From IMG/VR virus record IMGVR_UViG_3300047478_000221, positions 1 to 37,954 of that record: a DNA stretch of 37,954 bases. One strand, written 5' to 3'. Of this stretch, positions 1 through 37,954 are shown one piece after another. The DNA is from a virus. The translations under genes were made by a program, and so were the position numbers. Under the pieces are notes generated by a model. That model ran no database searches. It saw only the letters and a program-made list of their open reading frames with translations, and was not told where the DNA came from. The number at the start of each line of letters is the position of its first letter. The stretch's first letter is position 1.

Positions 1-239
1 GATTCGGGTTGGCAATCTTTCTCATCACTTCAGGAAAGCGGTTCCATGCCGTTTGGTGAGAAAATCCTAAAATCTGATATGCTTCCTTGCGCTTATGGGT
101 TTGTAAGATGCCTAAAACCACTTCCGCATCTGGATATTGAGGGATATTATAGAGCCATACTATTTGATGCATTTTACAGGTTTTCAAAATCGTTTGAGGA
201 GAACAGCCTAGCTCTTTGGATGCTTGCTTTAACGAAACT
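1..239. repeat. Direct repeat of the window end (circular overlap), copy 1
   Basis: Positions 1-239 match 37716-37954 base for base except position 112 (C) against 37827 (T). Coding on both strands continues in frame when the copies are merged: terL forward and the HNH gene in reverse. This is the usual sign of a circular or circularly permuted genome assembled into one linear contig. A true terminal repeat placed inside an essential gene is less likely. Confidence 0.93.
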
Positions 240-592
240 TCTGGGTTGCGAGCAACTTTTAGCACATTATCAACAAAATTTGGATTATAACACTTCGCAG
301 CTTTTTGATGATGAGACATGTGAGCAGATTGGGTCTCAAATAGTTCAAGATTTGAAGGAGTATTGTTCAACTTATCCCCATCTATATGATGGACACGTTC
401 AGTTGGCAGAAGAAAGCGTCCTAGCTCTAATTCCATTATTAAGCGATGCTGCCAAACCATGCCTCTTAGATTACAATATGGGTGGAATGGGCAGTACTCA
501 AGCATATATCCACACCTTACCACAGTATGACTATTGCCATCCATATACCGATGAGGAAAGGGCATGTTCCGAGGAAAGTGTGTTCGTCCCAT
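1..592 (-). CDS. Antisense HNH homing endonuclease nested in the TerL intein (N-terminal part)
   Basis: The complement of the intein carries an ORF starting at ATG 592-590. It runs off the window start and continues from 37954 down to a stop at 37666 (213 residues in all). It is a clear HNH_3-type endonuclease. CGYMLEYCPFHPYC is near residues 27-40, WQHRLIMELELGR follows at 47-59, and then comes the catalytic VHHIDGDKLNN (66-76) with SNLELFETQSAHMSHH (79-94). Likely key residues are His67, His68, Asp70, Asn76, Asn80 and His90. Two helix-turn-helix-like segments for DNA binding follow. Its codon positions 1, 2 and 3 lie opposite sense positions 1, 3 and 2. An AGGA stands 10 bases before the start, and a TTGACA-type promoter lies further upstream at 653-683. 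By family knowledge it should cut intein-free terL alleles; that target is inferred. An internal ATG at 565-563 is an alternative start. Confidence 0.9.
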   Translation of the reverse strand, partial: MGRTHFPRNMPFPHRYMDGNSHTVVRCGYMLEYCPFHPYCNLRGMVWQHRLIMELELGRFLLPTERVHHIDGDKLNNTPSNLELFETQSAHMSHHQKAAKCYNPNFVDNVLKVARNPEVSLKQASKELGCSPQTILKTCKMHQIVWLYNIPQYPDAEVVLGILQTHKRKEAYQILGFSHQTAWNRFPEVMRKIANPN

Positions 593-1746
593 TTATTAGT
601 TATCCTATAGAAGATAAAGAAGTTATAGACATCACCGTACGTAACGCTAATCATTATATAGCTACTAACACAATGATTGTCAATAAGAATACTTGGATTG
701 GCTTTGATGAATTAGGCAACTGGGCTAGTAATGACATCTTTAAAATGCTTATTGGCTGTCTTCGTAATGCTAACGAGGAAGTTAAGACTAAAAGAATACG
801 CTGTTCTGCAAACCCAGGTGGTATTGGGCATCATTGGGTTAAAAGATTTTTCATAGACCATGCTCCTATGGGCTATACTCCAAAAGCAGATCCTGACACT
901 AAAATGATTGTAATGTTTATCCCTTCAAAAGTGCAAGATAACGTACTTTTAATGAAACGTGACCCTGATTACGTTAATCGCTTAAAAGGTGTTGGTAGTC
1001 CTGAACTTGTTAGAGCTTGGCTTGATGGAGACTGGTCAGTTGTTACAGGTGCATACTTTCCAGAATTTAATATAGCAAAACATGTTATAGCTCCTTTTAA
1101 GATTCCAAGCCACTGGTTTAGAATTGGGGGTTTTGACTGGGGTTCTTCTAAACCTTTTTGCTATCTTTGGTGTGCTATCTCAGATGGAACGATATTGCCA
1201 CGAGGTTCTATTATAGTTTACAATGAATATTACGGATGCTCAGAACCTAATAAAGGCTTAAAGCTTGATGTTAGGCAAGTTGCTGAAGGTATCCACTTAC
1301 GAGATAGGTTATATCCAGTTCATGCAGCTGTAGCAGACCCTGCTATCTTTAAAGAAGAAGGGGGATTTTCTATAGGGCAGGAATTCTTTAGAAATGGCAT
1401 TAGGTTTCAAAGAGCTGATAACGTAAGAAAGGCAGGGTGGGAACAAGTACGAAAAAGGCTAAACGGGGAAGATGGTAAGCCTCAATTATACATTTTTGGT
1501 ACATGTGAGCACTTAATTAGAACGCTTCCTGCTATTCAGCATGATAAAACAGACCCAGAAGATGTTGACACAGATGGGGAAGATCATGCATTAGATACAT
1601 TGCGGTATGTGTGCATGACTAGGGTTAATCCAAAAGATAAGGCTCTAGAGCCAGAAAAAGTTAGAGATATTACCGCCTTTACTTTTAATGATGCTATGAG
1701 AATTAAACGGCAAGAAAAGAAAAAGTTTAACTATAAAAGAATTTAA
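1..1746 (+). CDS. terL: Terminase large subunit, C-terminal part, with most of its intein
   Basis: This is the continuation of the gene that starts at 37095; the reading frame is open from base 1, and bases 1-239 duplicate the window end. The joined precursor is 788 residues: N-extein 1-140, intein 141-437, C-extein 438-788. After splicing the enzyme would be 491 residues, normal for a phage packaging motor. The C-extein opens with TWIGFDELGNW (from 691), the Walker B motif with its Asp-Glu pair. It continues into an RNase H-like headful nuclease whose acidic residues are visible in GGFDWGS (about 1126-1143), VADPAIF (about 1330) and DHALDTLRY (about 1582-1605). The protein docks on the portal, hydrolyses ATP to drive DNA into the procapsid and cuts the concatemer. 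The stop codon overlaps the portal start as TAATG. Confidence 0.95.
   Translation, partial: DSGWQSFSSLQESGSMPFGEKILKSDMLPCAYGFVRCLKPLPHLDIEGYYRAILFDAFYRFSKSFEENSLALWMLALTKLLGCEQLLAHYQQNLDYNTSQLFDDETCEQIGSQIVQDLKEYCSTYPHLYDGHVQLAEESVLALIPLLSDAAKPCLLDYNMGGMGSTQAYIHTLPQYDYCHPYTDEERACSEESVFVPFISYPIEDKEVIDITVRNANHYIATNTMIVNKNTWIGFDELGNWASNDIFKMLIGCLRNANEEVKTKRIRCSANPGGIGHHWVKRFFIDHAPMGYTPKADPDTKMIVMFIPSKVQDNVLLMKRDPDYVNRLKGVGSPELVRAWLDGDWSVVTGAYFPEFNIAKHVIAPFKIPSHWFRIGGFDWGSSKPFCYLWCAISDGTILPRGSIIVYNEYYGCSEPNKGLKLDVRQVAEGIHLRDRLYPVHAAVADPAIFKEEGGFSIGQEFFRNGIRFQRADNVRKAGWEQVRKRLNGEDGKPQLYIFGTCEHLIRTLPAIQHDKTDPEDVDTDGEDHALDTLRYVCMTRVNPKDKALEPEKVRDITAFTFNDAMRIKRQEKKKFNYKRI
653..683 (-). promoter_or_regulatory. 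Predicted sigma70 promoter for the antisense HNH gene
   Basis: On the minus strand there is a perfect TTGACA (683-678). It is followed by TATATA at 17-base spacing (660-655) and by the exact TATAAT at 19-base spacing (658-653). Transcription would start near 645-650 and give a leader of about 55 bases before ATG 592. The promoter lies inside the codons for intein block G (MIVN), so it must satisfy both coding and promoter needs. AT-rich DNA makes chance matches possible. Confidence 0.55.
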
Positions 1747-3965
1747 TGGAAGAAAAGACAGAAAAAGAAGAAATTGCACACGAAAATGCAGAGCTTGCTA
1801 AAAAGTGGATTTCTCAAATTGAAATCTCAGAAAAGTACTATAAAGACTATTGGAAAAAGTGCGAAAGCCTAATCAAAACCTATACAGCACAAGGCGATAA
1901 AACAGGGGATGATTTAGATGAAGCCTTATATCAAGTAAATATCTTCTGGTCTAATGTTCAAACACTTAAACCTGCAATTTATGCAAATTTACCTGTTATT
2001 CAAGCACAACGTCGTTTTTTAGATAAAGACCCAACTGCTAACACAGCAGCTTTAATGCTAGAACGTGCTACTCATTACCAAACAGAAAATTATGATTTTA
2101 ACTCACTTATAGAAAAATGTGTAAGAGATAACCTTATTATTGGTCGTGGTACTACCTGGATAAGACACGATGCAAGCCTTAAACAAGATAGACTTCAAGT
2201 AAGTCCAATTGAGGGTGGAAAATACATTAGCGAAGAAGGAGATGAATACGAGTCTGATTCAGTTACAGAAGAAGATGGTAAATATTACGCAGTTCAAGAA
2301 GATATTACAGATGATAAAGTAATTGCAGATTATGTGCATTTTCAAGATTTCTTAACTTCAACAGCAAGAGTCTGGGAAGAAGTTAGATGGGTAGCTAGAA
2401 AGGCAAGTTATACAAAAGATGCGTTTAAAGAGCGTTTTGGTGAAGAAATGCTTAAAAAAGTGCGCTTTACGGCAGTAGAAAAAGAAGAAAAAGTCTATTT
2501 TGAAGAAGATAAGAAAGAACAAGAAAACATTAAGAAAATCTTTGTTTATGAAATTTGGTGTAAAGATACTAAAACTATTTACTGGGTGACTAAATCTTGT
2601 AAAACTCAAGTTTTAGACCAGTCAAGTGATTTTTTAGGATTAAAAGATTTCTTCCCATGTCCAAAACCATTATTTGCAACTTTAGATAATCAATCAGTTA
2701 AGCCGATTGCTGATTTCTTATTTTACCAAGACCAGGCAAATCAACTAAATGCTGTCGGTTATAGAATTAGAGTTTTGACAGAAGCCTTAAAAGTAGCTGG
2801 TATTTATGATGCTACAAGTGAAGGGCTAGCAGATTTACTAAACGCAACTGATGGGGAGATGATTCCTGTCAAAAACTTTGATGTAGTAAGAGAAAAAGGT
2901 GGAGTTGATGGGCTTATTAGCTTTATTCCACTAAAAAGCATTATAGAAGCTTTAAATACTCTATATCAAACAAGAGACTCTATTAAGCAAGAGATATATG
3001 AAATTTCTGGAGTATCTGATGTATTAAGAGGAGCAAGCAACCCTCATGAATCAGCAACGGCTCAAGAGCTAAAAGGTGAATATGCTGGTATCCGCCTATC
3101 AGATAGACAAAAACTTGTTCAAAATTTTATTAAGGAGATTTTAAGCCTTAAAGCTGAAATTATAGCTAATAAGTTCTCAGATGAAACTATTATGAGAACA
3201 TCTTCAGCTCAGCAATTTGCAATAACAGAGGATGGTCAACAAATAGACCTGTCTCAAGCCTTGGGACTTTTAAAAGATAATTTTGAAAGAGACTACAGAA
3301 TTGAGATTGAAACTAACTCTACTATTGCAACTAATCAAGCAAAGACAAAAGAAGAAATTAAAGATTTTATGGAAGGGTTCATGCAATTAATTGCTAATGT
3401 TTCAGGAGGCATTCCAGCCCCTTTAATGCCAGTAGTTAAAGAAGCAAGTTTATTCTATATTAGAACCTTTAGAGCAGGTAGAGCGCTAGAAACAAGTATT
3501 GAGAAAGCTTTAGATGCATTAAAATCACAACAAGAACAAGCTGCTCAACAACCACCTCCACCAGATCCAATGATTCAAGCAGAACAAATAAAAGCTCAAA
3601 GCAATCAAGCTGAAATGCAGATGAAAGTAGATGCTGATATGCAAAATCATCAAGGCACTATGGCGTTAAAGCAAGAACAGGCTTACATGGATTTTGAAAT
3701 AGCTCAAAGAAAACTTGATATTGAAGAATTACAAGCAGAAATTGAGATAGAAAGGCTTGGTCTTGAAAGAGCTAAGTTAGAAGCTGAATTAGGCAACCAG
3801 GATAAGGATTACGAGTTACGCTCTGCTGAAATGCTTATGAAAGATTCAGATAGAGATGGGATTGCTGCAATGGACGAGAATAAACCAAGGACTAAACGTA
3901 AAGTTGAAGGCACTTTACCAAATGGAGTTCTTGTAACTGAGGAAACAGAAGGAGTAGGAATCTAA
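1746..3965 (+). CDS. Portal protein (podovirus type)
   Basis: This 739-residue protein directly follows terL (TAATG overlap) and has the size, position and composition of P22-like portals. The dodecameric portal forms the DNA channel at one capsid vertex and binds TerL during packaging. The N-terminal two thirds contain the alternating helix/strand core with segments such as YQDQANQLNAVGYRIRVLTE and a DVLRGASNPHESATAQE stretch typical of this family. From about residue 590 the chain becomes Gln/Glu/Ala-rich with a PPPP run and a long predicted coiled coil to about 700, matching the helical barrel tail of podoviral portals. A 123-residue gene and then the scaffold follow, the normal order in this group. 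Confidence 0.85.
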   Translation: MEEKTEKEEIAHENAELAKKWISQIEISEKYYKDYWKKCESLIKTYTAQGDKTGDDLDEALYQVNIFWSNVQTLKPAIYANLPVIQAQRRFLDKDPTANTAALMLERATHYQTENYDFNSLIEKCVRDNLIIGRGTTWIRHDASLKQDRLQVSPIEGGKYISEEGDEYESDSVTEEDGKYYAVQEDITDDKVIADYVHFQDFLTSTARVWEEVRWVARKASYTKDAFKERFGEEMLKKVRFTAVEKEEKVYFEEDKKEQENIKKIFVYEIWCKDTKTIYWVTKSCKTQVLDQSSDFLGLKDFFPCPKPLFATLDNQSVKPIADFLFYQDQANQLNAVGYRIRVLTEALKVAGIYDATSEGLADLLNATDGEMIPVKNFDVVREKGGVDGLISFIPLKSIIEALNTLYQTRDSIKQEIYEISGVSDVLRGASNPHESATAQELKGEYAGIRLSDRQKLVQNFIKEILSLKAEIIANKFSDETIMRTSSAQQFAITEDGQQIDLSQALGLLKDNFERDYRIEIETNSTIATNQAKTKEEIKDFMEGFMQLIANVSGGIPAPLMPVVKEASLFYIRTFRAGRALETSIEKALDALKSQQEQAAQQPPPPDPMIQAEQIKAQSNQAEMQMKVDADMQNHQGTMALKQEQAYMDFEIAQRKLDIEELQAEIEIERLGLERAKLEAELGNQDKDYELRSAEMLMKDSDRDGIAAMDENKPRTKRKVEGTLPNGVLVTEETEGVGI

Positions 3966-30935: not shown

Positions 30936-31505
30936 TTATTTAATCAAATAAGCTTTCAAAGCGTCTATTTGCTCAGTGCTTGCTATAAACTTAATTTCGT
31001 CGCCATTGGGTAGAACTTGAAAGTCTACTTCATAGCCAGAAACTTTTAACCAGTTAGCAAAGTCTTGTTTTTCCATCAGCTTATCAACTCTATATTTGTA
31101 TATAGTTGTTTTAACTACTTGTTTAGCTAATGGTTGTTTTTTATCTGTTACTCCAGATGCAGAATTACCGTCATCATCTTCAGCTTGCATAGCTAGCAAA
31201 CTGCCTAGCGTATAGCGTCTGTAATAAGTAATAGCACTACCAAGCTTTTGGGGATCTCCTAAGTCAGGTAGTTTAATAAAAGACCTGACTCTTTGATCAG
31301 ATTCGGGATCTATTATAAAGGTAGTTAACATATCGCCCTCAACTGGCTGTAATAATACTAGCCCATGTTTTTGTAGCACTGGCTCTACTGCTTCTAGGTA
31401 GCTATTAATATCTGCATAGCTAGACTTATAGAACGGATTCTTTAAGTCTTTCTTAACTGCTGATAACTCTGATTTTACTAATAATAGTTTTTTGTAAATG
31501 CTCAT
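30936..31505 (-). CDS. ERF-family single-strand annealing recombinase
   Basis: This 189-residue protein has the ERF core: FYKSSYADINSYLEAVEPVL, then KHGLVLLQPV, and the AITYYRRYTLGSLLAMQ and EDDDGN signature (about 92-113). ERF proteins anneal complementary single strands and drive phage recombination and circularisation. The C-terminal part is shorter than in P22 Erf. Partners nearby are Gp157, SSB and the DUF1064 nuclease. No exonuclease was recognised in the window. Confidence 0.88.
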   Translation of the reverse strand: MSIYKKLLLVKSELSAVKKDLKNPFYKSSYADINSYLEAVEPVLQKHGLVLLQPVEGDMLTTFIIDPESDQRVRSFIKLPDLGDPQKLGSAITYYRRYTLGSLLAMQAEDDDGNSASGVTDKKQPLAKQVVKTTIYKYRVDKLMEKQDFANWLKVSGYEVDFQVLPNGDEIKFIASTEQIDALKAYLIK

Positions 31506-36605: not shown

Positions 36606-37102
36606 CGAAGGCTAAAAAATTTATAATGGACGGGAGAACCAAGATTCATATTGATGAGCATGGAAACCCTTATAAGCTACCAGAGGGTAGGCCTTTTAAA
36701 AAGGTTAGCTTTGAGGATAGAGAGTATGTTTTAAATAATGCTTTCTGTACTACTAAAAAAGAGATGGCTGCTCATTTAGGTATGTCTGTACCTTCTTTAG
36801 ATAAACACTTTGCTCAGGAAATAGCTGGTAGTCGTGCTAAGTGGATTAATAAAACTCTTATTGCTGCTGAATTAGCTTTGGCTGAAGGTGTTCCTGCTGT
36901 TATTACTAAAATGCTTGGTAGTTTATGTGGGATGTCTGATACTAGTAAAATTGAGCATACTGGTAAAGATGGCGGTGCTATTGAACTTGTTAGCAAGCCT
37001 CCTCCTATCTCTCGTGAAGAATGGATGAAGCAATATAATCAAAGATTGGTAAATCCGAATCCTGAAATGGAAATCCTTCCTAGTGATGAGTTTGATGACT
37101 GA
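36602..37102 (+). CDS. terS: Terminase small subunit
   Basis: This 166-residue protein starts at TTG 36602 with AGGGG six bases upstream; an ATG 24 bases later lacks a ribosome site. It has a helix-turn-helix (TTKKEMAAHLGMSVPSLDKHF, in two pieces about 51-71). A helical oligomerisation region follows (KTLIAAELALAEGVPAVITK). The basic and acidic tail would contact TerL. TerS recognises the packaging site and starts headful packaging. The stop overlaps terL by 8 bases. Confidence 0.82.
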   Translation: MTKAKKFIMDGRTKIHIDEHGNPYKLPEGRPFKKVSFEDREYVLNNAFCTTKKEMAAHLGMSVPSLDKHFAQEIAGSRAKWINKTLIAAELALAEGVPAVITKMLGSLCGMSDTSKIEHTGKDGGAIELVSKPPPISREEWMKQYNQRLVNPNPEMEILPSDEFDD

Positions 37103-37954
37103 CGATGATTTTGGGGACGATCTAGAGGTTGAAGTCTGGCAACCTGAATATGAAGCAGAGATAGTTAGAGAAGCTGCTTGGACTCCACAAATCGGGCCTC
37201 AATTAGCAGCTATAGAAGCTACTTGGTGTGATATATTACTCTTTGGTGGTGCTCGTGGTGGTGGTAAATCTGATTATCTTTTAGGCGATTTCCTACAAGA
37301 TGTTGATACCTACGGTGCTAATTGGCAGGGTATCTTATTTCGTAAAAGTTATAACGAATTAGAGGAAATTATTAAAAGAAGCCATGAGCTTTTTACTGGC
37401 ATTGGAAAATGGCTTGCTACTAAAAAAACTTGGATATTCCCTAGTGGGGGGACTCTTAAGTTAAGATTTGTAGAGAGACTAGAGGACGCAACAAAGTATC
37501 AGGGTCATTCTTATTGCCTAGCAGTAGGAAGTCTTATTTTAATGGAAAGCGGGACTTCTAAAAAAATAGAAGATATTCAAATCGGTGATTATGTAAAAAC
37601 CCTAGAAGGGGGCTGTCGAGTTACTGATAAAATCCAGCCTTACAAGGCAAGGTGCGTTAAAGTTATCACTCTATTTGGAGAGCAGGAGAATCCTGAGACA
37701 CACCCCTTTTTAACCGATTCGGGTTGGCAATCTTTCTCATCACTTCAGGAAAGCGGTTCCATGCCGTTTGGTGAGAAAATCCTAAAATCTGATATGCTTC
37801 CTTGCGCTTATGGGTTTGTAAGATGCTTAAAACCACTTCCGCATCTGGATATTGAGGGATATTATAGAGCCATACTATTTGATGCATTTTACAGGTTTTC
37901 AAAATCGTTTGAGGAGAACAGCCTAGCTCTTTGGATGCTTGCTTTAACGAAACT
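37095..37954 (+). CDS. terL: Terminase large subunit, N-terminal part
   Basis: The ATG at 37095 overlaps the end of terS. The N-terminal ATPase domain has Walker A GGARGGGKS (residues 51-59), then FRKSYNELEEIIKRS and an adenine-motif-like region. At residue 140 (KYQGHSY) the chain enters the intein at Cys141 (37515). The gene runs off the window end and continues from base 240. The gene is split only by where the circle was opened. Joined to TWIGFDE after splicing, the sequence YQGHSYTWIGFDE is that of a normal terminase. Confidence 0.95.
   Translation, partial: MTDDDFGDDLEVEVWQPEYEAEIVREAAWTPQIGPQLAAIEATWCDILLFGGARGGGKSDYLLGDFLQDVDTYGANWQGILFRKSYNELEEIIKRSHELFTGIGKWLATKKTWIFPSGGTLKLRFVERLEDATKYQGHSYCLAVGSLILMESGTSKKIEDIQIGDYVKTLEGGCRVTDKIQPYKARCVKVITLFGEQENPETHPFLTDSGWQSFSSLQESGSMPFGEKILKSDMLPCAYGFVRCLKPLPHLDIEGYYRAILFDAFYRFSKSFEENSLALWMLALTK
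37666..37954 (-). CDS. Antisense HNH homing endonuclease (C-terminal part)
   Basis: Continuation of the HNH gene from 592-1 across the circle junction; residues about 118 onward. The first helix-turn-helix (SLKQASKELGCSPQTILK) lies on this side of the junction and a second one (KRKEAYQILGFSHQTAWNRF) follows. The protein ends with LKRGVSQDSPALQIE, stop at 37668-37666. This tail overlaps the sense code for intein block B (TH at 37698-37703). The TTG at 37902 is an internal Leu codon, not the start. Confidence 0.9.
   Translation of the reverse strand, partial: VSLKQASKELGCSPQTILKTCKMHQIVWLYNIPQYPDAEVVLSILQTHKRKEAYQILGFSHQTAWNRFPEVMRKIANPNRLKRGVSQDSPALQIE
37716..37954. repeat. Direct repeat of the window start (circular overlap), copy 2
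   Basis: Matches 1-239 with one change (37827 T, 112 C). See copy 1. The two forms may represent strain variation within the sampled phage population. Confidence 0.93.

Follow-up and report, generated by a model that had tools for sequence, protein, structure and literature searches.

A phage terminase intein with a putative homing endonuclease gene on the opposite strand of the same DNA

The usual description of an intein has the endonuclease as one of its domains, in the same reading frame. In split-intein loci, the endonuclease is a separate protein within the intein locus, and Dassa et al., as cited in PMC3229294, are said to have described in 2009 "fractured genes" in which the endonuclease gene lies between the halves of a split intein. 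In fractured genes the host gene is broken in two, whereas the terL gene of the virus record considered here (IMGVR_UViG_3300047478_000221, whose 37,954 bases are called the window below) is one ORF of 788 residues, which rules out a split intein for the window. I-HmuI (PDB entry 1u3e), whose gene lies on the sense strand of a group I intron in a Bacillus phage, resembles the putative enzyme of the window: both combine an HNH homing endonuclease with DNA-binding helices.

Antisense homing endonuclease genes (HEGs) are known from group I introns. The nuclear group I intron of Didymium contains an antisense HEG whose product, I-DsqI, is a protein of its own which cuts the empty site (PMC9548176). 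As in the window, a self-splicing element is combined with an endonuclease gene on the complementary strand, but the splicing part of the intron is RNA, while that of the window is protein; both strands must therefore stay open and the sense strand has to be translated across the endonuclease gene. An intron of this type was rejected for the window, where no ribozyme and no Rfam intron match were found.

The ShiLan domain is an out-of-frame HNH insertion in a phage methylase, for which homing has been proposed (PMC11855218). It resembles the window in its phage host and in having an insert that stays open in the frame of the host protein and contains an HNH gene in a different frame. Unlike that of the window, it uses a third frame of the same strand, has no splicing domains and is retained in the host protein; the words antisense, opposite and reverse occur nowhere in the text of PMC11855218. 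A hidden HNH gene of the ShiLan type is ruled out here, because the HNH gene lies on the opposite strand and Hint parts are present.

The TerL inteins of mycobacteriophages (PMC5050341) and those of Caulobacter phages (GenBank) are inserted, like that of the window, in the ATPase part of TerL. The Caulobacter, Brevundimonas and Mesorhizobium TerL inteins examined (L109-L112) were considered as already known cases and rejected: they lie after the P-loop GHAK and have no antisense HNH gene. A search of the open-licence literature, at the level of titles and abstracts, found antisense HEGs only in group I introns and no antisense endonuclease inside an intein; an earlier report elsewhere is possible. 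An earlier note on this DNA, made from the sequence alone, had also associated antisense endonuclease genes with group I introns and not with inteins. Both parts of the element come from known families, and their coding arrangement was not found described in the literature searched.

The terL intein of the window and the gene on its complement

Bases 1-239 of the window duplicate bases 37716-37954 with one mismatch (C at 112, T at 37827), as is expected for a circular assembly; the record is that of a circular phage. The mismatch, a variant or a sequencing error, is synonymous (Leu) in the intein frame and changes Gly to Ser or the reverse in the HNH frame. When the ends are joined once, terL is a single ORF on the plus strand, which runs from 37095 across the record join to 1746 and contains a 297-residue intein (37515, across the join, to 690) at the Walker B site, YQGHSY/TWIGFDEL (slashes mark intein boundaries). 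The intein begins with CLAVGSLILMES and finishes with NHYIATNTMIVNKN, between the flanks ...EDATKYQGHSY and TWIGFDEL.... In intein-free relatives YQGHSY-TWIGFDEL is uninterrupted, which means that the Walker B site is empty there. The coordinates are collected in Table 1.

Table 1. Features of the terL intein locus in the window
Feature	Position	Strand	Basis
TerL N-extein, ends ...EDATKYQGHSY right before the Walker B motif	37095..37514	+	ORF; unbroken in intein-free relatives
Intein part 1, to the record join; contains Cys1 and the bulk of the N-terminal Hint part (CLAVGSLILMES...)	37515..37715	+	ORF, family profile; Hint fold in the model of relative L103
Intein part 2, ends ...NHYIATNTMIVNKN, +1 Thr at 691	1..690	+	family profile
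Intein stretch facing the endonuclease gene	most of 1-537	+	
C-terminal Hint part of the intein	about 538-690	+	C-part profile, E 2e-31 on L001
TerL C-extein (TWIGFDELGNW...) to stop codon	691..1746	+	ORF; PHROG terminase matches
HNH endonuclease gene, first 197 codons, ATG 592-590	1..592	-	ORF; PF13392; AlphaFold2 pLDDT 91.5
HNH endonuclease gene, remainder past the join, stop codon 37668-37666	37666..37715	-	ORF
HNH motif region VHHIDGDKLNNTPSNLELF...SAHMSHH	308..394	-	PF13392 in 21/21 members
First helix-turn-helix SLKQASKELGCSPQTILKTC, residues 120-139	176..235	-	helices in model; helix-turn-helix families in relatives
Second helix-turn-helix RKEAYQILGFSHQTAWNRFPEVM, residues 168-190	23..91	-	model
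AGGA, possible Shine-Dalgarno, 10 nt ahead of the antisense ATG	603..606	-	

The window intein has the marks of a class 1 intein: Cys1 is present, and the element reads C...NKN/T at Walker B, a conserved host motif. Across the Walker B members listed, the last residue is Asn and the +1 residue is T, S or C. The penultimate His is absent and replaced by Lys in the window. Across the Walker B clade described below this residue is K, R, C, Q or S; many members with inteins in the P-loop keep the His (HHN). Phage class 1 inteins with another penultimate residue exist and can splice (PMC5050341); the missing His nevertheless calls for caution and counts as a point against the interpretation preferred here. 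The Pfam matches of the window's own sense protein are weak (Hom_end_hint, E 0.0027) and include no endonuclease family, which argues against an intein with an in-frame endonuclease domain. The structural model of the sense intein of a relative, L103, has confident Hint ends, at approximately residues 300-340 and 1-70, and every one of its best PDB matches is an intein. Between these ends the model is mostly disordered, except for a stretch near residues 144-166. The sense part that faces the endonuclease is probably an unstructured linker.

The complement of the intein contains an ORF of 213 codons that starts with an ATG at 592, runs down to 1 and goes on past the join to its stop codon. The earlier note had proposed a complete HNH_3 endonuclease here. 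This identification is borne out by the profile search that the note had suggested, which gave a strong match of the antisense protein to HNH_3 (PF13392, E 2.7e-11, with a score of 43.3 bits where the cut-off is 24.8) and to ten PHROG HNH families, the best at 1.2e-18. The start of the gene, from 592 to 1, had been placed correctly and its continuation, from 37954 to 37666, had not: since 1-239 repeats 37716-37954, the gene continues from 37715 to 37666. The HNH motifs and the two helix-turn-helix regions that had been quoted are present and predicted with high confidence, and both strands are open as claimed, the 213-residue antisense ORF facing the unbroken ORF of TerL.

His68, His69, Asn77, Asn81 and His91 are invariant in 21 antisense HNH sequences. 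AlphaFold2, given the 197 residues that are contiguous in the window together with 20 relatives, predicts the HNH region followed by the two helix-turn-helix regions with a mean pLDDT of 91.5. The best PDB match of this model is I-HmuI, with a probability of 0.98 but an E-value of 0.022 and a whole-chain TM-score of about 0.3; an I-HmuI-like HNH homing endonuclease fold is therefore a likely assignment rather than a strong one. A sequence search of the PDB with the HNH profile returned weak helix-turn-helix matches only. Many relatives have a Shine-Dalgarno-like tetramer before an ATG at a place comparable to that of the AGGA in the window, but these motifs overlap conserved sense codons and are therefore not counted as evidence. 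A promoter scan gave no clear promoter for the antisense gene, an uninformative result which is counted against the preferred interpretation.

Relatives at the Walker B site and constraint on the two frames

Single-protein searches of viral contigs with the HNH protein or the C-extein returned no relatives, and the intein as query returned only a distant one. Relatives were found by scanning the viral contigs with a degenerate DNA pattern that encodes DxxxYQGHxYC, and then by an alignment search with the antisense proteins. The pattern gave eight distinct complete TerL inteins at the site of the window, seven of which have a long antisense HNH ORF. In the eighth (L092, the same intein as L104), the HNH core has been lost by internal deletion and the sense frame is open at 252 residues. 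L092 and L104 are two contigs that carry this same intein; its deleted HNH core and open sense frame fit a late step of a homing cycle.

The alignment search added further loci, in which profile scans place the HNH genes antisense between the Hint parts. Besides the window, 26 TerL inteins around the Walker B site have a homologous antisense HNH ORF; the earlier note had suggested a search of terL inteins for the same layout. The joint set therefore has 27 loci, including the window and the close pairs L113/L114 and L127/L131. The relative phase of the two frames is the same in 27/27, with the antisense wobble base facing sense position 2, and the Hint parts lie within a single ORF in all 26 loci that have both ends, L128 being cut by the end of its contig. 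In L133, L143, L144, L160 and L182 the insertion lies a few residues downstream of the window's site. A search of GenBank phages found no Walker B member, and a scan of genome contigs found seven HNH loci, none of which has Walker-B Hint parts. L195, which is among the seven, is open in the opposite frame and places in the second clade described below, so that the layout may also occur in bacterial assemblies.

Other inteins were seen in terL genes. L114 and L133 have a second TerL intein, of another type and in the P-loop, beside the Walker B intein with its antisense HNH gene; L128 has another intein further along TerL (NPGGSGH/CVPYG...VSGN/SW); and the Rhodobacteraceae phage OP947163.1 (L006) has a TerL intein close to the end of the protein (TAEDH/CFAAGT...).

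When the antisense proteins were kept and their synonymous codons redrawn, about 210 stops were expected in the sense frame over the 27 loci, and none is seen. Within the HEG body alone, in 24 members, about 131 were expected and again none is seen. Selection therefore holds the sense frame open. Its sequence is much freer: the best blocks of the HEG body show 43-59% identity among the antisense amino acids and 18-25% among the sense ones. The third antisense position is the most variable in the HEG body, and the pattern reverses at both Hint ends. This reversal indicates that each stretch codes for one constrained protein, the other frame following. The dN/dS ratios of the HEG in eight cultured Pectobacterium and Dickeya phages, which belong to the second clade, are 0.10-0.42 for the frame of the HNH protein, against 0.61-2.86 for that of the intein, as plain counts uncorrected for the overlap and from pairs that are related rather than independent; the HEG pairs in this set differ by up to 28 bases and have zero sense stops. 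The best reading of these data is that the sense strand across the endonuclease is kept free of stops and that its sequence hardly matters otherwise.

The identities of TerL and of the HNH protein correlate (rho 0.52), which is counted against the preferred interpretation: within the Walker B clade, the spread may therefore be in large part vertical or old.

A second clade in P-loop inteins

Sixty-two HNH loci were first used as free-standing controls, a set which is not clean. Indeed, 24 of the 62 have no stop in the same opposite phase, the other two phases having mostly many, and the opposite frames of these 24 are long ORFs. A Pfam check that covers ten loci of this second set, and leaves out the other twelve distinct ones, found Intein_splicing (PF14890) in 9 of the 10 opposite-strand ORFs at E below 0.001, four of them above the curated cut-off. 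The matches mostly span the HEG gap, and the host proteins include terminases and helicases. By eye, the inteins lie mostly in the P-loop, e.g., GGC/...HHN/SGAGKS in L145.

In a tree of the HNH core, the Walker B set and the second set fall into separate clades, and free-standing HNH genes lie between the two. The supports, 0.86 and 0.76, are moderate, so that two separate origins of inteins with an antisense HNH gene, one per clade, are likely from this tree, short of proof.

The P-loop form occurs in nine cultured phage genomes: the Pectobacterium phages Ymer, Sabo, Abuela, Pappous, Taid, Koroua and Amona, Dickeya phage Setonix and Pseudoalteromonas phage PHS3. Escherichia phage KW1E_UTAR has an intein-free terL gene with 72% identity across the C-extein query, and the P-loop site of this gene is empty (GFG-TGKS). 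The annotations overlook the layout: those of the Pectobacterium phages label TerL as a hypothetical protein, and that of PHS3 includes the HNH gene and truncates TerL. In the GenBank record KX912252.1 (L202, 1218-2393 and 2486-3196), the HNH gene is annotated as a gene of its own and TerL is made to start after the intein; the N-extein and the intein are thus missing from the annotated protein.

Proposed mechanism and alternative readings

The window very probably contains a mobile terL intein whose homing endonuclease is a separate protein, read from the complementary strand of the intein's own DNA. The sequence itself shows the two frames and their homologies, the opposing patterns of constraint, the phase and the recurrence; we infer antisense transcription and translation, protein splicing, cleavage and homing. 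The sense transcript would give a TerL precursor that contains the intein, and the Hint halves at the ends of the intein (about 75 and 60 residues) would splice it out. The roughly 160 residues between them would be a linker whose sequence is nearly free as long as it contains no stop. The antisense transcript would give the I-HmuI-like HNH protein with its two helix-turn-helix regions, which could be expected to make a cut at the Walker B site of terL genes that lack the intein, and repair of the cut would copy the entire element, with both reading frames at once. The phage of the window encodes an Erf-like annealing protein (30936-31505), which could serve this repair.

The earlier note had arrived at this reading and proposed to test it by asking which strand conservation follows and by comparing dN/dS for each strand. 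Both results above agree with it: an HNH match was found, the antisense ORFs are open in all the Walker B relatives analysed, and conservation in the HEG body follows the antisense frame.

Alternatively, the antisense HNH gene could be a decayed or silent passenger, the relic of an HNH gene that once entered an intein of which only the splicing is now used. An intein that has lost its HNH core and kept its sense frame open (L092) is what such decay would produce, and a gene without a clear promoter would fit as well. However, the HNH catalytic residues are invariant in 21 diverged members, the antisense wobble sites are the most variable in the HEG body, and dN/dS is below 0.5 in the HNH frame of the cultured set; decayed copies are the exception, and they also fit a homing cycle. 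A passenger is therefore improbable. An HNH enzyme that acts on another target, such as the DNA of competing phages, or that aids packaging, rather than serving as the homing enzyme of this intein, is equally improbable. HNH proteins can indeed help terminases in packaging, as noted in PMC11855218, but the gene lies inside inteins and accompanies them both in helicases and at two sites of TerL, a recurrence that a gene moving with its intein would show, and the best PDB match of the fold is a homing enzyme.

Removal of the insert as RNA, by a group I or group II intron with an antisense HEG, has the precedent in PMC9548176 in its favor and is very improbable. No Rfam intron is found in the window or in six relatives, nor at a relaxed threshold in six sources; the sense ORF is unbroken over the insert in the Walker B members that have both ends; and the Hint ends, Cys1, the terminal Asn and the Cys, Ser or Thr at +1 are those of a protein-splicing element. 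That the antisense frame arose by chance or as an assembly artefact, the gene spanning the join of a circular record and long chance antisense ORFs being possible in GC-rich terL genes (as in L109), has practically no probability, given the strong HNH homology, the homologues of the antisense ORF at 26 further Walker B loci and in nine cultured phage genomes, the absence of sense stops where about 210 were expected, and the phase shared by all the loci.

Considered together, inteins with an antisense endonuclease probably form a distinct and widespread class of phage mobile elements, with at least two probable origins, one for the Walker B clade and one for the P-loop clade. If so, the same base pairs encode a splicing protein in one direction and a homing enzyme in the other, and the layout links an essential gene with a selfish one base for base. 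A stop in the sense stretch would be fatal to the host protein; losing the endonuclease would only end mobility. Encoding the two as separate proteins on opposite strands would permit a different timing and dose for splicing and for homing. Annotations would be missing the whole class, and the cultured phages would be natural test cases for two proteins that share one stretch of DNA.

Two variants of the layout were observed outside the Walker B set. In an AAA ATPase (L168, IMGVR_UViG_3300049489_001113, about 1260-3266) with an intein in its P-loop (PGC/LHGDTV...VWHHN/TGKS), the N and C parts of the intein are separate ORFs and the antisense HNH gene spans the gap between them. The locus has the appearance of a split intein combined with an antisense endonuclease, or of a broken copy, and it may be a bridge between the fractured-gene layout and the antisense-endonuclease inteins. 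In L134 and L177, the host protein of the antisense-HNH intein contains a second intein with LAGLIDADG_3 domains.
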